A stretch of DNA of 21,508 nt from the IMG/VR virus record IMGVR_UViG_3300042908_000431, positions 1 to 21,508 of that record; one strand, given 5' to 3'. Shown here in pieces: positions 3,323-21,496 of this stretch (the first letter of the stretch is position 1; every line of letters starts with the position of its first letter). The position numbers and the translations under genes were made by a program. The notes under the pieces were generated by a model. That model had not been told where the DNA came from, did no database searches, and saw nothing but the letters and a program-made list of their open reading frames with translations. The stretch is from a virus.

Positions 3323-4396
3323 TTATTCAGATTGCTCTTTGTTCTTAGCCTTCCAGGCAGTAGCAAAGGCAATGCCTTTTTCTTTAGCAGTTAGTTCGCC
3401 GTCTTTGGCATAACCCTTCTTGATGTGCTTGACCATACGCTCAAACTTGGCACCTGGAGGTGCTTTTTCATCAATCTGTTCTTCCTTGACAGTCTTTGAA
3501 TACTCATTGCTGTCTTTGCCATAACCATGACGACGAGCCATAGACTTTAGTTGTTCTTCTGATTTACCAGCGAACTTCTTAGCCTTTTCTTCTGGTGTCA
3601 TGTTAGCCAATTTCTGCTTATGCTTGATAACAGAAGCGGGCATACGACCTTCTTCGACAGTTTCTTCCATATAAGGATGCTTAGGAGCAGAGGCATTTAC
3701 CTTTGCCTTACCTTTCATCTTCTTATCAGCAAGAGCAACACCCTTTTCACGACCTTCTCCAGCCTTGTTCTTATAGCGAACAAGTTTGCCTAGAGAAACT
3801 TCGTTTAGACCCTTTTCAGAATCGGAGACTGCTTCCTTGTTACCCTTCTTCTTTTCATCGGAAGTGATATCATGCATTGGCTCTTTTGGAGCATTTGCTT
3901 TAGCAGACATCTGGCGACATTCGGCTTCTTCTGACATGGTGATTTCAGCAATGTCTAGTAGTTTGTCTAGTTCTTCCTTATCAACTACTCTTGCCATAAC
4001 CTTGAACATACCGCCAACAATTGGCTTAGCATATGTAATGCCATATGGTGTTAGTATGCCATACTGTAAGAATAGATAATGAGTTGAAGGAACTTCATTG
4101 ACAAACTCACCAGAGTCGGTCATACCCATCTTGTGTCCAAACTGACGTAGTTCAAATACCTCAACACCCTTATCACCTTCAAGGAACTTCTTAGGAAGAA
4201 TGATGTGATACTGTGCTAGTAGTTTTGATAGTCTGTTATAGACAACATAAGGTGTTACTGCTGGCTGTGAGGTCACGCCAGCAATAGCAGCATTGATAGC
4301 GGCACGAACCGCTGGTTTGTTAATGTCTAGGCTGCCATCTGCCACTTGGGCAGTTGGCATAACATCTTCTTTAAGAAAGTCACGAAATGTTTTCAT
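3323..4396 (-). CDS. Putative head protein with capsid-targeting-like N-terminus
   Basis: 357 aa. The start MKTFRDFLKED closely parallels the T4 internal protein III leader (MKTYQEFIAEA, from memory), which directs proteins into the prohead and is cut by gp21 after (L/I)-x-E; here L8-K9-E10 fits, although D rather than A/G follows. Residues about 25-165 form a folded domain (VTPYVVYNRLSKLLAQYHII ... FELRQFGHKMG). The middle (about 170-300) is Lys/Glu-rich and of low complexity. The last 45 residues (PPGAKFERMVKHIKKGYAKD ... KGIAFATAWKAKN) match a C-terminal module I recall in many T4-like phage proteins. It is flanked by virion-type genes. Likely a structural or internal head protein; an enzyme is not evident. 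Confidence 0.78.
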   Translation of the reverse strand: MKTFRDFLKEDVMPTAQVADGSLDINKPAVRAAINAAIAGVTSQPAVTPYVVYNRLSKLLAQYHIILPKKFLEGDKGVEVFELRQFGHKMGMTDSGEFVNEVPSTHYLFLQYGILTPYGITYAKPIVGGMFKVMARVVDKEELDKLLDIAEITMSEEAECRQMSAKANAPKEPMHDITSDEKKKGNKEAVSDSEKGLNEVSLGKLVRYKNKAGEGREKGVALADKKMKGKAKVNASAPKHPYMEETVEEGRMPASVIKHKQKLANMTPEEKAKKFAGKSEEQLKSMARRHGYGKDSNEYSKTVKEEQIDEKAPPGAKFERMVKHIKKGYAKDGELTAKEKGIAFATAWKAKNKEQSE

Positions 4397-4406
4397 CTAT
4401 GACTCC

Positions 4407-5018
4407 TTATGGTGTTGTTACGGCAGCGTTTGCGGATGTAACAGTGTTTGCTCCTGTTGCGGAAACTAGAACACGGAATGTATTGCCTGTTGCTACTGTA
4501 GCATTGGCGATTAGAGCAGGTGATGTTGCATTGAAGTAAATACCAGCGGTGTTAGCGACTGATACCCAACCTGAACCTGGGTTACGCTGCCATGCATAAG
4601 ATAGTGTAGCACCAGATGGTGTTGATGTAGCAACTGATGTTAGTGTTACGTTGCCTACGCCATTTGCACTTGATGGATTTGTTGTAATTCTTAGTGTGTA
4701 ATCTGGGAAGTTGGTATCATCAGAACCGTCGGTTGCGATTGAACCTGTAGCAACTAGAACTTCATATGTTACACGACCAGCACGTAGGCCAGTGCCTTCT
4801 TTACGAAGAACCCAACCAGAGTGAGGGATTTTACCGTTAGCACGGACTTCGTTTGTGTCTACAGCAAACTGTCCGATTGCTAGGTTTGTTGTGAACTGAC
4901 CAACTCTAGTATTACCATAAAGCATTGTCTGGTTGGCAGTTGTGGTTGCTTTATTAACCTGCATTGTTGCTGCAATGTCTGAATTGGCAGCGTTGTCTTT
5001 ATTACCCCATAGTGGCAT
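4407..5018 (-). CDS. Virion structural protein with C-terminal Ig-like domain
   Basis: 203 aa. The first half (MPLWGNKDNAANSDIAATMQ ... GKIPHSGWVLRKEGTGLRAGRVTYEVLVAT) is of a type I recall as highly conserved in T4-like cyanophages and annotated as virion structural. The second half (about 105-203) is a beta-rich Ser/Thr/Ala segment (LSYAWQRNPGSGWVSVANTA, then ATSPALIANATVATGNTFRV) typical of Ig-like or PKD-like modules on phage surfaces. Such domains commonly bind carbohydrate weakly, as T4 Hoc does. No signal peptide. The ATG follows an A/G-rich AAGGAAAAC. It is in line with other head-type genes. Confidence is good for virion protein and moderate for the Ig fold. Confidence 0.78.
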   Translation of the reverse strand: MPLWGNKDNAANSDIAATMQVNKATTTANQTMLYGNTRVGQFTTNLAIGQFAVDTNEVRANGKIPHSGWVLRKEGTGLRAGRVTYEVLVATGSIATDGSDDTNFPDYTLRITTNPSSANGVGNVTLTSVATSTPSGATLSYAWQRNPGSGWVSVANTAGIYFNATSPALIANATVATGNTFRVLVSATGANTVTSANAAVTTP

Positions 5019-7178: not shown

Positions 7179-9191
7179 TTATTTAGCTTTTCTGTATTTC
7201 TTCTTCTTAAAAATGCTTGTTTTTTCAAACTCTGCGTTCATGTCAGGTTTAACATCCTCTATATTTGAAGCATTTGGAGTTGCACCCATAGACCCCATAT
7301 AAGGATCAACTAGGCTTTCTTGTTTTAGTTTCTCGGCAGTTTCCTTCAACTTTTGCTCTGCCAACTTTCCATACTTCTCTTTAAATCTCTTGCGTGTTTC
7401 TTCTTTGACCATCCAACGATCAATAGGTGACCAGTTTGCATTAGGTTCCATAGGAACAGATGGGTTGACATCACCTGTAATGTTACCGACGAACGATGGG
7501 TTCTTAGCAGAGGTGAATGTCTGACCAAGATTGTCAGCGCCGATACGCAACTTGCCAAACACCTTGACACTATCTGGCTTATAGTAGCCCATCTTGCGTG
7601 TCTTACCTGGCTCTTGACCTGGTGTGTCTGCTTTATATCTGTTTGTTAGTTTAGGTGTTGCCCAGTTACCAGCACCACCTACAGGATTGTTCTTGGGCTT
7701 AGAATCAAAGTCTGAATAGCCTTCTAGCATTTGTTCGAAGCGACGATCCGTCTCTGATGATAAGAAGTCCTGGACCTCTTTTGCAATAGAATCCACAAAC
7801 TTGTTATATGTTTCTGTGATTACATTAGCATCAAGATCATTCTTGACCTCGATTACCTTTTCAAATAGTTGATCATATTTGTTTAGATTGAATTGAGCAT
7901 GACGCCATTTGTCATAACGTCTATCTTCTGCAATAACTCTACCACCAGTAGTTGATCTGGCTTCGTTACGTTGCTTTGATACTTCATTGCTGGTATTGAC
8001 GAACATCATAATCGTCTTATAGCCAGCACTCTCTAGGATATTCTTGATCTCTTTGGTAGCCTCATAGTCTGACATAGTGCCATTGACTACTAGGTTCTCA
8101 CCATTACATTCATTTACAGAAAACTTATTATCAGAAACTTCTCTAAAGCCATGTGGTAAGATTGCTTCTTTTAGAATCTTATCTTTACCCGATCCCGGCA
8201 CACCACCTAGAACGATAGCCTTATGCTCTGTAACATATGACTTTCTAAACATATCTGGATTAGCCTTGCCGAACCAGCGCATTACTCTTCCTGCCATGTA
8301 GTTTGCTTCGTCCTCTATTGGTGAGCCTGTAGCACCTTCTTTAGCAATATCTTTGCCGAGTTTGCCATCTTCATTTTGCTTATGATGAACCAACTCATGT
8401 GCTACTGTGCGGAAGATATCCATTGGGTGACGGTTCTTAGAAGCCACAATGATCTTCTTAGAGCATGGTGAATAGCCACCGAATGATGGCTGCTCGGCTT
8501 CATCTTCTGAACCAATCTTATACTCTAACTCTGGCACCTCTTTGATGCCTAGTTTATCTACTGTAAAGTCAATAAAGTTCTTTAGATGACCTTGAAATTC
8601 TTTGTGTGACATATCTTCGTTTAGTATTTCTTCTTCTTTGAGATATGTCTTAGCTGCACTGAAAATCTTTTTGGCTAATGTTCTATCAGATGTTGCAGAG
8701 ACTTTCATAAACTCTGAGAACTTACCAGAACGAATATACTCACGCATATCTGTACCAGACACGCCAGCCTTACGCTTGCCAGAGTTGATTACATCAAAAC
8801 GGCGAAAGGCATAGTTCTTCTTAGGATCAAATTTAGGATTGTCTCTAGGCATAACATACTTACCGATTTGTGTTTTGAACTCTGCCACACGATCACCACC
8901 AGTGATCATTGTAACATCTTCTACACCTTCATCGGATAGTTTCTTACAGATAGCAAAAGCGGTTGTTGCATTTGGGTCATCAACAACATTGATGCCAGGA
9001 AATATCTGGCGCAAGAATGATACTTTTTGCTGATAGGGGAGAGGGTTCTTTTTAGCGTCCCATGACTTGGAGGTATATACACGGAACTCGGCGCCTATCT
9101 TCTTAGCATAGTTGGCACCGTAATGGATCATTTCAGCATGACCCTTGGTAGGCACTTGAAAACGCCCAAATATGAATACAACTTTTTTCAT
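7179..9191 (-). CDS. Three-domain fusion: nucleotidyltransferase + zinc metalloprotease + P-loop kinase
   Basis: 670 aa. Domain 1 (about 1-170) is an HxGH-type nucleotidyltransferase: GRFQVPTKGH (9-18), TGGD (97-100) and VSGTDMR (144-150), closest to NadM/NMN adenylyltransferase-like enzymes. Domain 2 (about 195-310) carries HELVHH (265-270) with a downstream IEDEANYMAG (third ligand probably E295), a minimal zinc peptidase. Domain 3 (about 322-470) is a P-loop kinase with GGVPGSGKD (329-337) and an arginine-rich lid (EDRRYDKWR), similar to polynucleotide kinase/zeta-type folds. The tail (about 470-670) is Pro/Asn/Lys-rich like head proteins. TYLKEEEILNED (182-193) between domains 1 and 2 contains L/I-x-E sites. 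The ATG has GAGGGAGAGAC upstream; a hairpin and TATAAATA lie before it. Exact substrates are unknown. Confidence 0.85.
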   Translation of the reverse strand: MKKVVFIFGRFQVPTKGHAEMIHYGANYAKKIGAEFRVYTSKSWDAKKNPLPYQQKVSFLRQIFPGINVVDDPNATTAFAICKKLSDEGVEDVTMITGGDRVAEFKTQIGKYVMPRDNPKFDPKKNYAFRRFDVINSGKRKAGVSGTDMREYIRSGKFSEFMKVSATSDRTLAKKIFSAAKTYLKEEEILNEDMSHKEFQGHLKNFIDFTVDKLGIKEVPELEYKIGSEDEAEQPSFGGYSPCSKKIIVASKNRHPMDIFRTVAHELVHHKQNEDGKLGKDIAKEGATGSPIEDEANYMAGRVMRWFGKANPDMFRKSYVTEHKAIVLGGVPGSGKDKILKEAILPHGFREVSDNKFSVNECNGENLVVNGTMSDYEATKEIKNILESAGYKTIMMFVNTSNEVSKQRNEARSTTGGRVIAEDRRYDKWRHAQFNLNKYDQLFEKVIEVKNDLDANVITETYNKFVDSIAKEVQDFLSSETDRRFEQMLEGYSDFDSKPKNNPVGGAGNWATPKLTNRYKADTPGQEPGKTRKMGYYKPDSVKVFGKLRIGADNLGQTFTSAKNPSFVGNITGDVNPSVPMEPNANWSPIDRWMVKEETRKRFKEKYGKLAEQKLKETAEKLKQESLVDPYMGSMGATPNASNIEDVKPDMNAEFEKTSIFKKKKYRKAK

Positions 9192-9263: not shown

Positions 9264-9383
9264 CTATTTATATACTTTTTTCTTTCTAGCAGCCTTGACA
9301 ATCTTTTTGATTGTATCAACGACTGGGACTGGCTTGATTTCAGGATGCCCCTTATCACAACCGCAATGCTCTTTTATCTTCAT
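9264..9383 (-). CDS. Tiny basic protein, 39 aa
   Basis: A 39-codon frame whose ATG overlaps the stop of the ligase-like gene (ATGA). The product has a Cys/His start (EHCGCDKGHPE) and a very basic end (KKIVKAARKKKVYK), so it may bind nucleic acid or zinc, but I recognise no family. Its last codons overlap a perfect T4-late-type motif (TATAAATA). Coupling to the preceding gene and full use of the gap support it as real. Confidence 0.62.
   Translation of the reverse strand: MKIKEHCGCDKGHPEIKPVPVVDTIKKIVKAARKKKVYK
9265..9272 (-). promoter_or_regulatory. T4-late-type -10 motif TATAAATA before the fusion gene
   Basis: The minus strand reads TATAAATA here, the exact T4 late promoter -10 consensus. 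It stands about 74 bases before the ATG of the 670-aa gene, with the hairpin 9216..9253 in the leader. Late promoters of this type need a phage sigma factor (gp55) and sliding clamp, neither of which is in the window. Confidence 0.5.
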
Positions 9384-10627
9384 TTGGTTCCCCAGTTTTT
9401 GACAGCCAAGAAGTTGGCTCTACTAAACTCCATACGATCAACTAGTTTGACAGCATCACCACCAGTTGACCAAGCGGCTACATAGCCCTCAGGAGTTGTT
9501 ACCTTATAACCACCATCAGCGGTATGTAAGAATGTACCTAAGTCATTTACCTGATTGAACTTAGCAATCAATAGCATCTTGGCATCTATCAGTAGGTTTT
9601 GTAACTGAAAGATTTTCTTTAAATCGGTGGCGTGCTGACGATACCAACGGAGAACAATATCTCTTTCTGCCTTGCGCTTTGCTTTAGTCGCAGGCAGTTT
9701 GGCATCATCGATAGTCTTTTGGTATTTATCACCCACCCATTTTATAAGTTGAGCGGTGTGACCTGCGCCCATATGTTCACCAGCACGAATACGCTGATTA
9801 TAGAATGACATGATATGGATTCTATATGTTTCGTTAGTGGCAATAAAGTTTAGTAGTGAGGCTGGGATTGTTCTAAAAGTAGAACCAGCCTGCGAAAGAA
9901 TACCTGTCAGTTTGGCGTTCTCAGACTTAGTAAGTGTAGCACGACCTGTAACATCAACGAACTTATTAGAACGATACCATACATTGCGTGATGGTCTAAA
10001 GTTATTGACGTTGATATCAAAATGTGTTTGTAGAGTTTGCATTGTCTTACCATGATATGTGGTGTGAAAGACAATACCAATCTTAGCAGCCATAACTTGT
10101 CTAGCAAGAGACGAGTCAGCGGGAACAGCATATGTGATAGTATTAGGGCGGAATGTGATCCACTTTCTACCGTCGATTGTTTCCATCTTTAGGTCAGAAC
10201 GAGAGAACATAAAGTCACCATGAACGATGCCGGTGATACCTAACTCTGGTAAATACTTTAGTGCGTCTGATAGTTTATCAGCAAGACCACCCTGATGGTT
10301 TGCTCTAACGTCTGCTTCGGTATAGTTTAGTTTGGCGTTCTTAGCAAAGATAGACTTAGAGCCTACGAAGAAACGACCATTCTCTGGATTGATACCTGCA
10401 TAGATGGCAGGAGCACCATCAAACTTTGTTCTTAGAATTAGAGAGCCGCTGGCTTCTGATAATGTCTGACCATCATCAGCAAACATATCACGAAGCGAAC
10501 GAAGAAACTCAATAGCATTGCGAGTGCCGGCAACACCACCTTCTAGAACGGCATCCTCAATATGTGTGAGGTGACGATCCTTCTCGGCTGCTGCTTCTGT
10601 TAGAAAATCTGAAAGTCTAATCATCAA
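9380..10627 (-). CDS. ATP-dependent nucleic-acid ligase/nucleotidyltransferase-like protein with capsid-targeting-like N-terminus
   Basis: 415 aa. Seen: K68-F-D70-G71 with following AP (RTKFDGAPAIYAG), the motif I pattern of covalent nucleotidyltransferases (ligases, capping enzymes); FFVGSKSIF (86-94, near motif Ia/III); HGDFMF (136-141, motif III/IIIa-like); FRPNTITYAVP (159-169); TPEGYVAAW ... AVKLVDR (378-398), like motifs IV-V with E380-G and K394. This fits an enzyme that adenylates Lys68 and joins nucleic-acid ends. I recall related uncharacterised cyanophage proteins (DUF6267). The N-terminus MMIRLSDFLTEAAAEKD includes L9-T10-E11|A12, a perfect T4 gp21 cleavage pattern, suggesting head packaging. 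Its ATG overlaps the stop of the 266-aa gene (ATGA). Activity on DNA or RNA is not deducible. Confidence 0.78.
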   Translation of the reverse strand: MMIRLSDFLTEAAAEKDRHLTHIEDAVLEGGVAGTRNAIEFLRSLRDMFADDGQTLSEASGSLILRTKFDGAPAIYAGINPENGRFFVGSKSIFAKNAKLNYTEADVRANHQGGLADKLSDALKYLPELGITGIVHGDFMFSRSDLKMETIDGRKWITFRPNTITYAVPADSSLARQVMAAKIGIVFHTTYHGKTMQTLQTHFDINVNNFRPSRNVWYRSNKFVDVTGRATLTKSENAKLTGILSQAGSTFRTIPASLLNFIATNETYRIHIMSFYNQRIRAGEHMGAGHTAQLIKWVGDKYQKTIDDAKLPATKAKRKAERDIVLRWYRQHATDLKKIFQLQNLLIDAKMLLIAKFNQVNDLGTFLHTADGGYKVTTPEGYVAAWSTGGDAVKLVDRMEFSRANFLAVKNWGTK

Positions 10628-11424
10628 ATAGTGACTCCTGGTGGTTTCCCTGATAGTCTAAAACTAGCCATCACATCGATACTAGGTGGCTTTGAACCAC
10701 CTGTCATACCTCTAGGTTGTATTCTAACTTCCAGTTTTGCTTTCAAACCTACAAGTTTAGGAATGTTAGGCACACCAAGAGCCTGATTTATTCTCTTTTT
10801 GATCTCTGCATTAGCAGTACCTTTTGTGGCTACTAATGAGATACTATCACCGAGCATCATCAATAGAATACTGTAATCAGCATCCTTCTTGACTTCTTTA
10901 TTGAACTTGTTTTTGTAATGTGTGATAATGTGGTCACCCATAGTCACATTGTCGATATTAGCCAACTGGTAATTGCTTGTACCTTTGACAAACTTTTCCA
11001 TCTTGATCTTTCGTATCTTCTTATCAGGTTCAATAGAGAGCATACCAGAATAGATAGATTTAATACCAGGATCAACATACGTTTTAAAATCTTTGAGCAA
11101 TCTCTTACCGTTTCTTAGACAGTCAGGACTCTCGTTCATAATCTTGATTAGATCGGTCTTTTCAGGAGTTGGGTTGGGTGTGATAAACTTTTTACCATCA
11201 AACTGCCAATCTCGCATAGAACCCATCTGGGCTTTGGAGTCGGCTTTATACTCAACGTGTATATCTACTTTCTTACCATCAATGATGATACGAAAACCAA
11301 AATCCGGGAATGCTGTCGCAAACCCGGCTGGTTGTGCAAATGCGGTGGCACCTGCACCTAGTTTCTTTTTCATCTTATTAAATGCTTTGACTTCTTCTTG
11401 TTGAGCCTTAATATTCTCTGCCAA
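10624..11424 (-). CDS. Conserved phage protein, possible PD-(D/E)XK nuclease fold
   Basis: 266 aa. The N-terminal part has FPDFGFRIIIDGKKVDIHVE YK-type spacing: P40-D41, then V53-D54-I-H-V-E58-Y-K60, compatible with the D...ExK active site of PD-(D/E)XK nucleases on a beta-hairpin. The rest is a Lys-rich alpha/beta region and a C-terminal QPRGMTGGSKPPSIDVMASF beta segment. The gene is translationally coupled (ATGA) to the ligase-like gene, so the two products probably act together; a cutting and joining pair is an attractive but unproven reading. A late-type motif (CATAAATA at 11450-11457) and CTAGGAG precede its ATG. If the ExK match is accidental, it is simply an unknown virion-associated protein. 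Confidence 0.6.
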   Translation of the reverse strand: MAENIKAQQEEVKAFNKMKKKLGAGATAFAQPAGFATAFPDFGFRIIIDGKKVDIHVEYKADSKAQMGSMRDWQFDGKKFITPNPTPEKTDLIKIMNESPDCLRNGKRLLKDFKTYVDPGIKSIYSGMLSIEPDKKIRKIKMEKFVKGTSNYQLANIDNVTMGDHIITHYKNKFNKEVKKDADYSILLMMLGDSISLVATKGTANAEIKKRINQALGVPNIPKLVGLKAKLEVRIQPRGMTGGSKPPSIDVMASFRLSGKPPGVTI

Positions 11425-11449
11425 AACTATACTCCTAGTAATATAAGAG

Positions 11450-11457
11450 TATTTATG
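11450..11457 (-). promoter_or_regulatory. Late-type -10 motif CATAAATA before the nuclease/ligase pair
   Basis: Minus strand reads GCATAAATAC, one mismatch from T4 late TATAAATA; the same ten bases occur at 18931-18940 before another gene. It lies 26 bases upstream of the 266-aa ATG, a fitting distance for a short leader, and overlaps the stop codon of the preceding gene. Confidence 0.45.
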
Positions 11458-13519: not shown

Positions 13520-13761
13520 TTCTCTACCTCAGCCTGAATCAACTCTTTACAACGTCTCTTCCAGTCGTCACGCTGCCACTTTGCCTTGTCGTGTGATAGT
13601 TCATGATAGTCATTGGCGATGAACTGAACCAGCTTCTCATACTTTTGTAGACGCTCAACTTCTTTTTCTAACTGTTTTGCCACTAACATAGCATCGGTAG
13701 TTTTATAACGACCTTTGCCATCAGGTTTGAATTGACTTCTAAGTAGATCCCACGCTTTCAT
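13516..13761 (-). CDS. Hypothetical coiled-coil protein, 81 aa
   Basis: A highly charged helical protein: AKQLEKEVERLQKYEKLVQF gives a heptad-like stretch, followed by HDKAKWQRDDWKRRCKELIQ. No catalytic or binding motif is recognised. ATGA overlaps on both sides (with the deaminase gene upstream and the 74-aa gene downstream) support the start and the operon. Confidence 0.7.
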   Translation of the reverse strand: MKAWDLLRSQFKPDGKGRYKTTDAMLVAKQLEKEVERLQKYEKLVQFIANDYHELSHDKAKWQRDDWKRRCKELIQAEVEK

Positions 13762-14171
13762 TCCACCACCTCATAATCTCCATCATCACAAGTGTATATC
13801 GTCCGTCTAAAGCCAAACTCGGCAATTGCTCTAGCACAACCAGGGCACGGCTTAGACAATCCCCACACAAACTTTTTAGTGAAAGGCTTTTCCTTCTTAA
13901 CTCGTGCGATATAAATGTCACACTTGGAAAGATCATCCACGTCCATTTCACGCAAGGCATTCTTGATAGCAGCCACTTCCGCATGTAGGAAGATAGCATG
14001 TTCATTCTTGGAAAACTTAGCCTGCATGGGATGGGATTTCATGCTATTGATACCAATAGACACGATACGATTCCGATAAACGACCGCAGCCGCAAACTTT
14101 TCCCGGAGACCAGGATTAGCTGCGGCTACTTTCGCCAGAGTATGGAGGATACCTGCATTCACATTTTTCAT
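13758..14171 (-). CDS. Cytidine/deoxycytidylate deaminase-like protein
   Basis: 137 aa zinc deaminase. H63-A-E65 (HAEVAAI) supplies a zinc ligand and the proton-shuttle Glu; P108-C109-P-G-C112 (PCPGCARAI) gives the two Cys ligands. The fold usually converts dCMP or cytidine to the uracil form, which would feed thymidylate synthesis (a probable thyX starts at the window edge). It is shorter than T4 dCMP deaminase (193 aa) and lacks its extra zinc site, so a (deoxy)cytidine or nucleic-acid base substrate is possible. The promoter 14178..14206 places the start point at or next to the ATG, so the message may be leaderless; no ribosome-binding site is visible. Confidence 0.85.
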   Translation of the reverse strand: MKNVNAGILHTLAKVAAANPGLREKFAAAVVYRNRIVSIGINSMKSHPMQAKFSKNEHAIFLHAEVAAIKNALREMDVDDLSKCDIYIARVKKEKPFTKKFVWGLSKPCPGCARAIAEFGFRRTIYTCDDGDYEVVE

Positions 14172-14206: not shown

Positions 14207-14830
14207 GACGGGATACTTATTTACTATCTTTCCCTTGACAACTGAAACGGTAGCAGGAATCGTATTGCCGATATCTTTACCGTCATAGCGCCACTTGATT
14301 TGAATGATGCCGACACCTTTGGCGTGCCATGCTCTCCAACCAGCGGCCTTACCAGAACCGAATGACTGATCATATTCGATCTCGACCACATCGGTGTAGC
14401 CCAATAGTAGGTTATATTGATTGCAGAATTTTACTCTTTGATTGCCAGGTGTGCCAACTTCAAACTTAGTTGAGGCAATAGAGTCGATTTGAATAGGTGC
14501 GTTAAATTCATCACCAATGTTCTGTAAGCCACCCCAAAAGATTTCTTTACCTTTAGTGAAGGCAGTTGTTCTATAAGTTGTCCAGAACTGATAAGCACGG
14601 CGAGGATAGATATCAGCGGTTTCAGTTACACCTTTCTCACCGAGATAATCCATAACCCATGTTGCTTGCCACTTGTTGTCGTGATAGTCCTCTTGATAAT
14701 AATGGCGATTGTCTCCCGAGTTCCAGACCATGAACGAGTAGGGTTTACCATCTGCTCCATTACCAAAGTTGTGAATTGATAGATACCCTGGCTCAGGTGT
14801 AGGCCAGTAATTTCGGAATAGAAATGCCAT
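14198..14830 (-). CDS. Hypothetical beta-rich phage protein, 210 aa
   Basis: Starts MAFLFRNYWPTPEPGYLSIH and is rich in aromatic residues, Gly and Asn (KPYSFMVWNSGDNRHYYQED, FGSGKAAGWRAWHAKGVGII), suggesting a jelly-roll or lectin-like beta fold. No family is recognised and there is no signal peptide. The ATG at 14828-14830 overlaps the Dps-like stop (TAATG) and has GGGAG upstream; an upstream in-frame ATG at 14917 lies inside the Dps-like gene and gives an unrelated leader. Its last codons contain the -35 box of the next promoter. It could be a virion or carbohydrate-binding protein, but nothing proves that. Confidence 0.7.
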   Translation of the reverse strand: MAFLFRNYWPTPEPGYLSIHNFGNGADGKPYSFMVWNSGDNRHYYQEDYHDNKWQATWVMDYLGEKGVTETADIYPRRAYQFWTTYRTTAFTKGKEIFWGGLQNIGDEFNAPIQIDSIASTKFEVGTPGNQRVKFCNQYNLLLGYTDVVEIEYDQSFGSGKAAGWRAWHAKGVGIIQIKWRYDGKDIGNTIPATVSVVKGKIVNKYPVLT

Positions 14831-15270
14831 TACTTTTCTCCCATTGTTGCCCTCAACATCCAACGATGCTTTTTGTGTGTGGTGATTAAGTCTTGAACAT
14901 AGTTCTGCCAGCCCCAAGCCTTTTCCTTACCTGCTATATCGAAACATTCATTCAAACAGGCGATGACTTGTTCGTTAGCGTCATAAAGGTTCTTGAACAT
15001 CTTTTCTGGCTTAACGATCTGCGTATCTTCTTTGATCTCTGAAAGTTCGATTAACCTAGCCATTGAAGGAGGTGCGAAGGAATCCATTTGCCTGATGTGT
15101 TCTGCGACAACATCTAATTCACCATGCACACTCTCGTATAGATCACCGAAGAAAGCATGATACTGTGGAAACTCTGGGCCGATATAGTTCCAGTGATATG
15201 CATGTGCCTTCATGTAGAACACAAACATGTTACCCAATAAGACTTTTGCTTTTTCTACTACTTCATCCAT
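14830..15270 (-). CDS. Dps-like ferritin-family protein
   Basis: 146 aa four-helix protein. AHAYHWNYIGPEFPQYH is the Dps signature (H26 in HWN and H38 as ferroxidase ligands), and HGELDVVAEHIR gives D53 and E57 in the D-x3-E spacing. The acidic residue normally four positions after the second His is displaced by one (D43), so the iron site may be altered. Dps proteins bind and oxidise iron and protect DNA; in a phage this could guard DNA against oxidation or supply an iron store. It is slightly shorter than E. coli Dps (167 aa) and lacks a long basic N-tail. It overlaps the zinc-ribbon gene by eight bases. Confidence 0.8.
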   Translation of the reverse strand: MDEVVEKAKVLLGNMFVFYMKAHAYHWNYIGPEFPQYHAFFGDLYESVHGELDVVAEHIRQMDSFAPPSMARLIELSEIKEDTQIVKPEKMFKNLYDANEQVIACLNECFDIAGKEKAWGWQNYVQDLITTHKKHRWMLRATMGEK

Positions 15271-15466
15271 TTTCGTTCTCTTTGTAGCGTCCCCACTTAT
15301 TTAGCGGACATTTAGAATTAGGCCATATAGTCTTGGCTTTTAGAAAGCATCCACATTCTTTGCATTGTATCAAGGTTCTGTTAAAGTGTTCGCAACCTTC
15401 ACATATCTCCATACGCTCGGCTGCCATCTTCTTATTCTTTGTCCACCTTGTTTCCAATTCTATCAT
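15263..15466 (-). CDS. Small zinc-ribbon protein, DUF6171-like
   Basis: 67 aa with two cysteine pairs: C-x2-C (ICEGCEHF), C-x2-C-x-C (QCKECGCF) and a final C (SKCPLNKW). This CxxC...CxxCGCF..K...CPxxKW pattern is that of a small phage zinc-ribbon family (DUF6171 as I recall); its role is unknown, perhaps nucleic-acid or protein binding. It overlaps the QueG-like gene by 35 bases; the ATG at 15466 has a weak GGGAAG. An internal ATG (15427) is possible and would keep all cysteines. Confidence 0.78.
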   Translation of the reverse strand: MIELETRWTKNKKMAAERMEICEGCEHFNRTLIQCKECGCFLKAKTIWPNSKCPLNKWGRYKENENG

Positions 15467-16319
15467 ACGGATACTTCCCGTTCCATTTGCTGCATCTTGG
15501 TTGAGAGGTACATTCTCTGCATATAGGTATATCTACTGCAACACCATCTTTATATACTGATTGACCATCAGATGTATAACCGTTTTGATTCCATGGCATA
15601 CCATTCAAACCACCCTCATTAAATGGGCGCAATGATTTCATATAATCAGTGACACCATCAACATAGTCTTTCGGTATCTCAGGATAAACATTCTCGTGCC
15701 AATATTTTTTGACAGAAGGTATCGTAGGATGATTTGATATACCGATAAACGTCTCACATTTACTCGAATCTAACCACCACGAAAACTCATTCTTACCACT
15801 ATTATGTATAGCACCTACAGGACATGCTTTAGCACAATCGTCACAACCAACACATCTGTTCCATATCTTATAGTTCACCCGTTTGTCTGTAGGTAGATCA
15901 ACAATCTCTTTTTCAAATCTAACTGCTGCAATGTGATGATCAAAACCAAACCTGTAACTATAGATTAATGAGTTCTTGGCTCTGACACCCAAGCCTGCTA
16001 AGATAGCCGCCTCTTTGTAGTTTGTATATATTAGATAGTTATCTCTTTCACCATTTCTATCTAGAATGTCTCTGGCTTCTTGATAGTGGGTATAGTCCCA
16101 TGATGCACCATCACGTATCAATACTATTGTATTCGTCTCTTTTCTAAAGAACAAGTCATTGGAAAAATCTTCCATGAATGGCTGATTTAGTAGGTGGAGT
16201 TTTGCTTTTACGGGGTGTAAGTTTGCTCTATGAAACAACTCTGGTGTTAGAACACCAATGTCCCAATGCTTTTCATCAAACAAACTTTTAATATAATTGA
16301 ATGATATCGTATCAGTCAA
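15432..16319 (-). CDS. QueG-like 4Fe-4S protein (epoxyqueuosine reductase family)
   Basis: 295 aa. C156-x2-C159-x2-C162-x3-C166-P (RCVGCDDCAKACPVGAI) is a ferredoxin-type cluster site. C188 and C267-x2-C270-x5-C276 could bind a second cluster, but not in the regular CxxCxxCxxxC form. Upstream, YKEAAILAGLGVRAKNSLIY (101-120) resembles the QueG segment AGLGWIGKN. QueG uses cobalamin to reduce epoxyqueuosine in tRNA; the family is also related to reductive dehalogenases. The phage encodes a tRNA-Tyr(GTA), a queuosine substrate, about 4 kb upstream. The first codon is TTG, with AGGTGG six bases before it; no ATG is available in the N-terminal region. A hairpin lies 18 bases upstream. Exact reaction uncertain. 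Confidence 0.72.
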   Translation of the reverse strand: MTDTISFNYIKSLFDEKHWDIGVLTPELFHRANLHPVKAKLHLLNQPFMEDFSNDLFFRKETNTIVLIRDGASWDYTHYQEARDILDRNGERDNYLIYTNYKEAAILAGLGVRAKNSLIYSYRFGFDHHIAAVRFEKEIVDLPTDKRVNYKIWNRCVGCDDCAKACPVGAIHNSGKNEFSWWLDSSKCETFIGISNHPTIPSVKKYWHENVYPEIPKDYVDGVTDYMKSLRPFNEGGLNGMPWNQNGYTSDGQSVYKDGVAVDIPICRECTSQPRCSKWNGKYPYDRIGNKVDKE

Positions 16320-18943: not shown

Positions 18944-19549
18944 CTAAAAGTATTCACCGAATACAAAGTTTAGAGTGATACGAGGCCCACCCTTTCTTGG
19001 CACTGACGATGTGTGACACTGTGTTAGAGGAAACAAAACGCTCTTGCCTTTCTCGGCAGTGATACGCAACTGGTTTGTAAAGTTGCCATTCCAATTCTCT
19101 GGCCCATAACGTTTATGCACATAGTCATAAGTCTCATTGAACATAAACGTATCACCATCTGCATCATTTACAAAGTAGAGAAACGTCTCACCACGAAAGT
19201 TATCCTCAGAGTTATCGATATGACCAGGGTGATGAAAGTCCTCTGGATAAGAGCCGTCTTTTGTATAGAGATTAGCTTTGATACGCCATACTCTATTCTG
19301 AAAGCGCCGACCCTGATGACGTTCTAATGCTTCTATGATAGGCTGACAAATCTTGGGATAGTAATACTCCGACTGAACCTTGCCGTCAATATAGAACATA
19401 TGACCAAAGAAGGGAGTGTTTAGAGTCCTATTGTCATTGAACATGTCATAGGTTGCTTCGGCATTATAATACCACGGAAACCCATTCAACATAGTATTCT
19501 CGATTTCGGTTTGCTTTTCTCTCGAAAGCAAGTCTTTTATGATTTCCAT
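18944..19549 (-). CDS. 2-oxoglutarate/Fe(II)-dependent oxygenase
   Basis: 201 aa. H110-I-D112 (HPGHIDNS) and the distal H179 (QCHTSSVP) form the iron triad, and R190 in GGPRITLNFVF should bind 2-oxoglutarate; this is the prolyl-4-hydroxylase-like layout common in T4-like phages. Substrates may be protein, nucleic acid or a metabolite; nothing here decides it. It has its own promoter (19600..19628) inside a long inverted repeat. It is transcribed before the Gly/Tyr-rich gene. Confidence 0.85.
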   Translation of the reverse strand: MEIIKDLLSREKQTEIENTMLNGFPWYYNAEATYDMFNDNRTLNTPFFGHMFYIDGKVQSEYYYPKICQPIIEALERHQGRRFQNRVWRIKANLYTKDGSYPEDFHHPGHIDNSEDNFRGETFLYFVNDADGDTFMFNETYDYVHKRYGPENWNGNFTNQLRITAEKGKSVLFPLTQCHTSSVPRKGGPRITLNFVFGEYF

Positions 19550-20467: not shown

Positions 20468-20542
20468 TGGATCTCCCGCTAGGATTCGAACCCAGATAGC
20501 CAGAACCAGAATCTAGCGTCCTACCAGTTAGACGACAGGAGA
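20468..20542 (-). tRNA. tRNA-Gln(CTG)
   Basis: Folds as a standard cloverleaf: acceptor TCTCCTG/CGGGAGA, D-stem GTCT/GGAC, anticodon stem CTAGA/TCTGG with loop TTCTGGT (anticodon CTG), T-arm CTGGG-TTCGAAT-CCTAG, discriminator T and an encoded CCA. It reads CAG. Confidence 0.88.
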
Positions 20543-20543
20543 A

Positions 20544-20629
20544 TGGTAGGGGACCCCGGTAACGATCCGGGCCAGCACATAGGCTTGGGTTTTACAGACC
20601 CCTTGGCGTCCTTAGCCAAATAGTCCCCC
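20544..20629 (-). tRNA. tRNA-Tyr(GTA), long variable arm
   Basis: Acceptor GGGGGAC/GTCCCCT with A and encoded CCA, anticodon loop CTGTAAA (anticodon GTA), a long variable arm (AGC..GCT) typical of bacterial tRNA-Tyr, and T-arm CCCGG-ATCGTTA-CCGGG. The T-loop has A54 and T58 in place of T54 and A58. The anticodon stem has four good pairs. One base separates it from tRNA-Gln. U33-G34-U35 makes it a queuosine substrate type. Confidence 0.85.
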
Positions 20630-20633
20630 ATAA

Positions 20634-20707
20634 TGGTTGTCCCTGATGGTATCGATCCATCGTCTATCGCTTATCAAGCGATTGCTCTACCTTTGAGCTA
20701 AGGGACA
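20634..20707 (-). tRNA. tRNA-Ile(GAT)
   Basis: Acceptor TGTCCCT/AGGGACA with A and encoded CCA, D-stem GCTC/GAGC, anticodon stem ATCGC/GCGAT with loop TTGATAA (anticodon GAT), T-arm GATGG-ATCGATA-CCATC with A54 and A60. It starts on the base next to the stop of the 62-aa gene. Confidence 0.9.
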
Positions 20708-20897: not shown

Positions 20898-21365
20898 TCA
20901 ATACTCCAGACGTTCCTGGTTACACTCGAAAGTGTACCAACCTTCGGCACGGAACGCATCGATGATACGATGACGATCTTCGAAGATGGCACCAACCTTA
21001 TAGTTAGGATGGTGCTGTAGCCAATTCTTGATAATCTTGACCTTTAGAACGTCATCATCTTCACGGTTTCCACCAGGACGCATGTATAGGTCCTGCGTAG
21101 GAAAATTAAACTGAATATGACGATTGAGCCATTCTAGTGATACATCACGGAAACGCTCATCACGACCAGTAACGACAATGAAAGCATCATCAGCACGGTC
21201 AAAAGCCAGAGCATGAAACACATCTAGCACCGCCTGATACGGTTCATCTAAATGCTGCTTGGCAAAGAACTGATCCCAGTCCTTCTTTTCCCCACGCAAA
21301 TGATCCCAACGGTGATGCACATTCGCCATAGTGTTGTCAATATCAAATACCCAAAGTTTATTCAT
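20898..21365 (-). CDS. HAD-family phosphatase, PNKP 3'-phosphatase-like
   Basis: 155 aa. D8-I-D10-N-T (FDIDNT) is the HAD nucleophile motif, VVTGR (64-68) motif II, K108/K110 (DDVLKVKIIK) motif III and FEDR (128-131) motif IV. The arrangement HHRWDHLRGEKKDWDQF ... LYMRPGGNREDDDVLK is that of the T4 polynucleotide kinase phosphatase domain, which removes 3'-phosphates (and 2',3'-cyclic phosphates) from nucleic acids. The kinase domain of T4 Pnkp is absent here, so it is a stand-alone phosphatase; a kinase-like domain is in the 670-aa fusion. The ATG is the end of the dyad arm ATCGGAATG, with AAAGG upstream. Confidence 0.82.
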   Translation of the reverse strand: MNKLWVFDIDNTMANVHHRWDHLRGEKKDWDQFFAKQHLDEPYQAVLDVFHALAFDRADDAFIVVTGRDERFRDVSLEWLNRHIQFNFPTQDLYMRPGGNREDDDVLKVKIIKNWLQHHPNYKVGAIFEDRHRIIDAFRAEGWYTFECNQERLEY

Positions 21366-21422: not shown

Positions 21423-21496
21423 TGGTGCCGGTTAACGGAATCGAACCGCTATCAGAGGACTACGAAACCACTGTAATGCCATTATACTAAACCGGC
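21423..21496 (-). tRNA. tRNA-Thr(CGT), tentative anticodon
   Basis: Acceptor GCCGGTT/AACCGGC with A and encoded CCA, D-arm GTATAATGGCATTAC, T-arm AGCGG-TTCGATT-CCGTT. The best anticodon loop is TTCGTAG (anticodon CGT), but the stem GTGGT/TCCTC then has two T-T mismatches. The tRNA is clear; the anticodon is less sure. Confidence 0.75.

Follow-up and report, generated by a model that had tools for sequence, protein, structure and literature searches.

The window analysed here is the whole of a 21.5-kb virus fragment (positions 1 to 21,508 of the IMG/VR record IMGVR_UViG_3300042908_000431). Two adjacent genes on its minus strand are considered: the first encodes a 266-amino-acid nuclease-like protein, and the second a 414-amino-acid ligase-like protein of the family DUF6267. 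An initial annotation made from the sequence had proposed both genes, and both are real. The open reading frames (ORFs) at 10624-11424 and 9380-10627 are present on the minus strand, and all of the motifs it had named (VDIHVEYK in the first protein; KFDG, HGDFMF, EGYV, and a later lysine in the second) were found. It had overlooked that the second gene belongs to a known and widespread family. The pair and its expression signals are arranged as follows:

11450-11457, minus strand: late-promoter-like octamer CATAAATA (extended CATAAATACTCTT), one mismatch, 33 nucleotides upstream of the nuclease TTG
11432-11436, minus strand: ribosome-binding site AGGAG of the nuclease gene, seen in the sequence
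10624-11424, minus strand: gene 1, PD-(D/E)XK-like nuclease of 266 amino acids, TTG start at 11424, member of a 17-sequence family (profile E-value 1.7e-8)
9380-10624, minus strand: gene 2, DUF6267, 414 amino acids, ligase-like nucleotidyltransferase (PF19782, E-value 7e-101; alignment; predicted fold)

Gene junction and probable late promoter

The DUF6267 ORF as listed (9380-10627) opens with a TTG, and an ATG at 10624 follows immediately. The ATG was taken as the start because homologues begin there. As a result, the protein has 414 rather than the 415 amino acids first given, and its candidate active-site lysine is K67 rather than K68. The junction of the two genes reads TGATG, in which the stop and the start have one base in common, and is not the four-base ATGA overlap described earlier. 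Three DUF6267 proteins served as seeds for the searches behind the locus counts reported here; these counts are no census. Among 233 loci with enough upstream sequence, 200 carry a tightly coupled ORF of at least 120 amino acids that ends close to the DUF6267 start, and 33 have no gene in this slot. A one-base stop-start overlap is the commonest junction among the relatives (80/200). Of the distinct upstream proteins, roughly 90% belong to families with a nuclease motif, which supports the proposed coupling.

A late-type promoter motif had also been proposed for the pair. In the window alone, octamer matches are not above chance (28 seen, 30 expected); across the family the observation does exceed chance. 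Of 121 distinct slot genes, 26 have an exact TATAAATA no more than 120 nucleotides upstream, against 1.5% expected from its density in the loci. This is about 14 times the expectation, and the positions are mostly -28 to -47. Of 178 DUF6267 genes, just 4 are preceded by the same exact octamer. Because the octamer is enriched before the slot gene and scarce before DUF6267, and because CATAAATACTCTT stands at -33 in the window, the two genes probably share a late transcript with the nuclease gene first and DUF6267 second.

Fold and capsid-targeting sequence of DUF6267

The 414-amino-acid protein matches DUF6267 (PF19782) over its full length with 338.7 bits, against a Pfam cut-off of 27, and also belongs to phrog_455; both entries are annotated as of unknown function. 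In the T4-like gene clusters the family is GC 71, and the gene order seen here is shared with cyanophages. Relatives occur in 464 phage records, mostly of cyanophages. Uncultured virus contigs hold the closest ones; the nearest isolates are C48C1, DLP6, and Methylophilales phages. A literature search found no paper naming DUF6267. A cellular origin was considered and set aside: of the 34 loci that a scan of genomes returned, nearly all belong to bins assembled from water metagenomes and are most likely binned phage contigs. The features of the protein are as follows:

10595-10624, minus strand: capsid-targeting sequence MIRLSDFLTE with a predicted prohead-protease cut after Glu10, so that the predicted mature form begins at A11 (pattern match; E10 invariant in 48 homologues)
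10415-10426, minus strand: motif I, K67-F-D-G, with the predicted nucleotidyl-lysine (K67, D69, and G70 invariant in 48 homologues)
10214-10219, minus strand: motif III, G136-D137, invariant
9548-9928, minus strand: helical module, residues 233-359, between motifs IIIa and IV (predicted structure)
9479-9490, minus strand: motif IV, E379-G-Y-V, without the usual lysine (E379, G380, and V382 invariant)
9446-9448, minus strand: motif V lysine K393, invariant

In an alignment of 48 diverse DUF6267 sequences, the nucleotidyltransferase motifs KxDG, III, IV, and V are conserved and stand in the canonical order. The invariant residues are E10, K67, D69, G70, G136-D137, E379-G380, V382, K393, and R397, and most positions of an FxPNTIxY stretch are invariant too. 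A shortened DUF6267 of 315 amino acids occurs in phage S-H25 (L253:4362-5309); its helical module is reduced while KWDGAPA and EGYV are kept, and it is possibly a minimal form.

Structures were predicted for both proteins of the window. The AlphaFold2 model of DUF6267, built on the 48-sequence alignment, has a mean predicted local distance difference test score (pLDDT) of 82.9 and a predicted template modelling score (pTM) of 0.77. The 1000 chains ranked best by Foldseek were rescored with a second aligner, and all 50 of the neighbours listed are enzymes of the ligase superfamily, with Z from 8.4 to 6.0, although a Z near 8 is not decisive alone. Naegleria RNA ligase (Z 8.4, 182 residues, 3.7 Å) and trypanosome RNA editing ligase 1 (Z 8.3) come first. 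They are followed by T4 Rnl2 (7.7), fungal Trl1 (7.1), T4 Rnl1 (6.8), and human DNA ligase I (6.6). The initial annotation had counted the lack of any structural match to nucleotidyltransferases against its proposal; such matches were obtained, and the conserved motifs and predicted fold support a ligase-like second gene. The ligase of Clostridium thermocellum Pnkp also has a helical insert; it is not among the listed neighbours of the model. By predicted fold and motif order DUF6267 is ligase-like, and it is not assigned to a known ligase family.

The N-terminus of DUF6267 suggests where the protein goes. In T4 internal proteins, some ten N-terminal residues direct entry into the prohead, positions 4 and 7 serving in targeting and positions 8 and 10 in cutting (PMC9026906). 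The full T4-type pattern is present in 90 of 116 distinct DUF6267 N-termini and in 36 of 785 other ORFs from the same loci; this background consists of mechanical ORFs and is hence approximate, and several of the 36 are cargo-type neighbours or missed copies of the nuclease and DUF6267 genes. Packaging of DUF6267 into the head is thus a well-supported prediction. Cultured phages with a tagged DUF6267 include Methylophilales phage Melnitz, Pelagibacter phage HTVC008M, and Stenotrophomonas phage DLP6. The nuclease of the window has no targeting sequence (its N-terminus is MAENIKAQQEE) and no in-frame start upstream, while several of its relatives are tagged. In other words, the earlier proposal that both proteins are head cargo is supported, on this pattern, for DUF6267 and not for the nuclease of the window.

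Other proteins encoded near DUF6267 in relatives bear the same kind of tag, namely HAD phosphatase-like and cytidylyltransferase-like proteins; kinase-like ones fit the pattern loosely. At four loci (L180:3396-4001, L209:2457-3065, L067:7242-7871, and L068:7242-7856), tagged HAD-family phosphatase-like genes directly adjoin DUF6267. Published virion proteomics offers an independent check; it covers tagged cytidylyltransferases and one untagged DUF6267, and no tagged DUF6267. The cytidylyltransferase of the corresponding region of S-CREM2, tagged MKNFSSFLTE-A, was detected in virions (PMC10665884). That of S-SZBM1, encoded directly after DUF6267 and tagged MRFRQFIIE-A, was detected in particles, and the DUF6267 of this phage, which begins MAKNTHLEHLED and has no targeting sequence, was not (PMC9146016). 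S-SM1 particles contained a cytidylyltransferase too (PMC3037559). The S-CREM2 proteome was also considered as evidence against packaging and dropped, as S-CREM2 has no DUF6267 at the corresponding place.

The nuclease slot and neighbouring genes

Pfam, NCBIfam, and PADLOC gave no match to the 266-amino-acid protein of the window. A direct search with it returned near-identical copies only, and a tblastn search of the phage collection returned no match; its relatives were found solely through the conserved neighbour DUF6267. It joins slot cluster 1 (profile E-value 1.7e-8, hhalign probability 88.7%). Four residues of catalytic kind, E11, D41, E58, and K60, are invariant in 17 homologues:

11392-11394, minus strand: E11, first-helix glutamate, invariant in the family alignment
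11302-11304, minus strand: D41 of PDFG, predicted metal ligand, invariant in the family alignment
11245-11253, minus strand: E58-Y-K60 (ExK), invariant in the family alignment

The D...ExK core had initially been placed at VDIHVEYK. Its ExK (E58 and K60) is indeed conserved; the conserved aspartate is D41 and not the one in VDIHVEYK. The structure predicted for it (pLDDT 74.3) has the archaeal resolvases Hjc and Hje as nearest neighbours (Z 7.1 to 6.2), followed by restriction enzymes, with Z down to 5. The family profile matched the Holliday-junction resolvase of Thermus phage 15-6 (7bgs) in the PDB weakly (E-value 0.014). The E-D-ExK conservation together with the predicted fold supports a PD-(D/E)XK-like protein, as first suggested, with a predicted nuclease activity.

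The slot upstream of DUF6267 is hypervariable. Its 133 distinct proteins form 23 BLAST clusters, most of which cannot be aligned with one another. In phage pairs whose DUF6267 proteins are 85-95% identical, the slot proteins typically have no detectable similarity, and one large single-linkage cluster makes the same-cluster figures in this pairwise comparison too high. Because similar DUF6267 proteins are accompanied by dissimilar slot proteins, the slot gene is, on the sequence comparison, either exchanged or very fast evolving. A conserved D-x(12-14)-[S/E]-x-K occurs in most other clusters of at least three members. In cluster 2, three proteins, including one of phage DLP6, hit the PADLOC type II restriction-enzyme model (1.7e-12, 1.5e-10, and 3e-8). 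Singletons are mostly other genes, such as a HAD-like protein, a zeta-type kinase, and an HD protein. Apart from the links between the window protein and cluster 1 and between clusters 0 and 5, no convincing profile links were found between slot families. Since such links are few, the argument that all slot nucleases have one origin draws on the shared motif and position only.

Some loci lack the slot nuclease, among them those of four close relatives that have DUF6267. At L040:577-610 about 30 bases separate the flanking genes, and L011, L027, and L030 carry short ORFs in its place. In phage P-SSM2 (L252:3519-4196, T4-GC 188), a cluster-1-type nuclease adjoins a tagged cytidylyltransferase with no DUF6267 between them.

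DUF6267 is followed in nearly all related loci of sufficient length by the gene listed first below:

7179-9191, minus strand: next gene, 670 amino acids, with a cytidylyltransferase/NMNAT-like domain, a HELVHH metallopeptidase-like segment, and a zeta-toxin/AAA_33 P-loop kinase domain
9265-9272, minus strand: exact TATAAATA upstream of the 670-amino-acid gene, from the motif scan

The 670-amino-acid protein itself has no targeting sequence; distant cyanophage homologues of it occur in virions (PMC9146016, PMC10665884, PMC3037559). A 357-amino-acid protein (3323-4396, minus strand) begins MKTFRDFLKE-D, a near-perfect T4-type tag, has homologues in several relatives, and is probably another head cargo protein. 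Next to it lies a 203-amino-acid phrog_613 head protein (4407-5018, minus strand), whose apparent S-SZBM1 counterpart was detected in the virion. A stand-alone PNKP-type 3'-phosphatase (20898-21365, minus strand; HAD_PNKP, E-value 8e-16) lies amid genes for transfer RNAs (tRNAs) for Gln, Tyr, Ile, and Thr, which flank it at 20468-20707 and 21423-21496. The minus strand also carries an auxiliary set typical of water phages: cytidine deaminase-like (13758-14171), ferritin/Dps-like (14830-15270), 4Fe-4S ferredoxin-like (15432-16319), and 2OG-Fe(II) oxygenase-like (18944-19549) genes.

Proposed function of the pair

What might such a pair do? The explanation favoured here is that a late operon of a T4-like phage provides two proteins for use in the first minutes of infection, a nuclease and a ligase-like enzyme packaged in the head. 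The anatomy, that is, the operon, the promoter enrichment, the targeting sequence, the motifs, the folds, and the variable slot as read from sequences and models, is very probably correct. For the function as a whole, which takes in catalysis, substrate, delivery, and the purpose of the pair, we give a probability of about 0.4.

According to this explanation, DUF6267 would be a covalent nucleotidyltransferase of the ligase superfamily, with RNA ligases as the nearest in shape. The ten residues at its N-terminus would send it into the prohead, a gp21-type protease would cleave it after Glu10, and it would enter the cell along with the phage DNA. There it would form an adenosine monophosphate (AMP)-lysine at K67 and seal 3'-OH/5'-phosphate breaks ahead of expression of the phage's own repair genes. 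The sealing target would more likely be RNA, for example tRNAs cut by host defence, than DNA. RNA is favoured because of the structural ranking, the lack of an OB domain, the PNKP-type 3'-phosphatase in the window, and the P-loop kinase domain next door; the phosphatase and the kinase domain are partners that a sealing enzyme would need. Gene 1 would be a PD-(D/E)XK endonuclease, one of many interchangeable and highly dissimilar nucleases, and its probable target would be the DNA of the host or of rivals. Several relatives encode a head-tagged version; in the phage of the window the protein may be a late product that is left unpacked, or it may ride along. A generic sealing enzyme would account for one conserved partner of many different nucleases. 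The two proteins may or may not act on the same molecule.

Several results weigh against this explanation. Foldseek E-values are weak for both models (best 0.099 for DUF6267 and 0.013 for the nuclease), and hhalign of the DUF6267 profile with T4 Rnl2 fails (probability 0.4%). Pfam and PDB sequence searches found no ligase for DUF6267: the PDB profile search gave chance-level matches only, mostly helical, single-sequence PDB searches with either protein gave none, and PF09414 (the Rnl2 family) has no match in the window. DUF6267 is called ligase-like and not a ligase-family member because the Foldseek E-values are weak and sequence profiles are blind to the relation. Its motif IV lysine is absent, and the model stops about 20 residues past motif V with neither an OB nor an Rnl2 C-terminal domain, so DUF6267 might not join ends. 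On the nuclease side, serine replaces the ExK glutamate in most other slot families, and the window protein is untagged. The coupling is loosened by a partner that is exchanged or has diverged past recognition, that is missing at 33 loci, and that occurs in P-SSM2 with no adjoining DUF6267. The preference for RNA over DNA is circumstantial, as the phosphatase lies 9.5 kb away and is untagged.

These weak points leave room for other explanations. The pair could process the phage's own DNA. In that case a late resolvase-like nuclease would take the role that endonuclease VII has in T4 and trim branches to allow packaging, and nicks in the packaged or newly injected genome would be sealed by the ligase-like protein. 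The Hjc-like nuclease model, the resolvase profile match, the late promoter, and the DNA ligases among the neighbours of the DUF6267 model are consistent with such a role, and resolvase candidates with a restriction-enzyme (REase) fold have been proposed in other large phages (PMC7824862). It is nevertheless unlikely: a slot nuclease that is hypervariable, sometimes restriction-enzyme-like, and missing at some loci is unlike an essential resolvase, and DUF6267 lacks the OB domain of DNA ligases. No better placed is an injected effector that moves a nucleotide onto a host protein or RNA and joins no ends, comparable to T4 Alt with ADP-ribose. The capsid-targeting sequence resembles that of T4 internal proteins, the missing motif IV lysine and C-terminal ligase domain fit such an effector, and the neighbours include NMNAT-like and kinase domains and not repair enzymes alone. 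However, the nearest folds are polynucleotide ligases, led by nick-sealing RNA ligases, and a nuclease gene adjoins DUF6267 in most phages.

The adjoining nuclease could itself be an unrelated exchangeable or mobile hotspot gene that shares the late promoter of DUF6267 and is functionally independent of it. Unalignable families swapped between phages with similar DUF6267 (85-95% identity), the 33 of 233 loci that lack the gene, and the P-SSM2 nuclease that stands apart from DUF6267 point that way. Yet nearly all slot families with several members share a single fold type and the D-x(12-14)-[S/E]-x-K core, one-base stop-start overlaps recur, and targeting sequences are common to several families, which makes this explanation quite improbable. 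Also rather unlikely is a self-protected cutting weapon injected by T4-like phages, in which a fast-exchanged restriction-like nuclease would destroy host or rival nucleic acid. One conserved ligase-like enzyme would be delivered together with it and would be the general antidote, resealing breaks in phage DNA or in needed RNAs. We know of no ligase that is delivered in the virion as an infection effector, and this weapon with its antidote, if true, would be the first.

How much of the late operon with its head-packaged ligase-like enzyme was known before? T4-like phages are known to inject enzymes (Alt, IPI), and both RNA ligases of phages and combinations of a nuclease with a ligase have precedents. 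DUF6267 resembles T4 Rnl2, RNA editing ligase, and Naegleria RNA ligase in predicted fold and in the order of motifs I, Ia, III, IIIa, IV, and V. It differs from them in having no profile similarity, no motif IV lysine, and no C-terminal domain, and in adding the helical module between motifs IIIa and IV and the capsid-targeting N-terminus. To our knowledge, T4's own RNA ligases are not packed into the head by such a tag. With T4 IPI-IPIII and Alt, DUF6267 shares a short N-terminal tag ending in [L/I]xE, late expression, and expected injection; the cargo here, in contrast, is a ligase-like enzyme. The 266-amino-acid protein is like the PD-(D/E)XK resolvases Hjc, Hje, and that of Thermus phage 15-6 in E-D-ExK and fold core, but it has a long C-terminal extension and restriction-enzyme-like relatives in the same slot, and a resolvase activity is only putative. 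In T4 the endonuclease gene denA adjoins the RNA ligase gene rnlA, and fusions of HNH nucleases to Rnl2 ligases have been reported in jumbo phages (PMC7824862). Both couple a phage nuclease to an RNA ligase, whereas the pair in the window has another nuclease fold, separate genes, a late promoter, head targeting, and a hypervariable nuclease. The initial annotation knew of no described system of this composition, a statement that these precedents narrow: a head-targeted ligase-like enzyme and its accompanying hypervariable nuclease slot were not found described. DUF6267 itself carries a family annotation of unknown function; the proposals of a ligase-like protein and of a targeting sequence are new here.

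Hundreds of abundant marine and freshwater phages carry DUF6267, a family with no assigned function. It can now be linked to an enzyme class open to testing, a signal for head delivery, and a highly variable nuclease partner. If it is active and injected, end-sealing would arrive ready-made, which would bear on how phages outrun nuclease-based defences, and a new ligase may be gained. An anonymous core-like gene thereby gains a concrete hypothesis about the earliest minutes of infection in very common water viruses.

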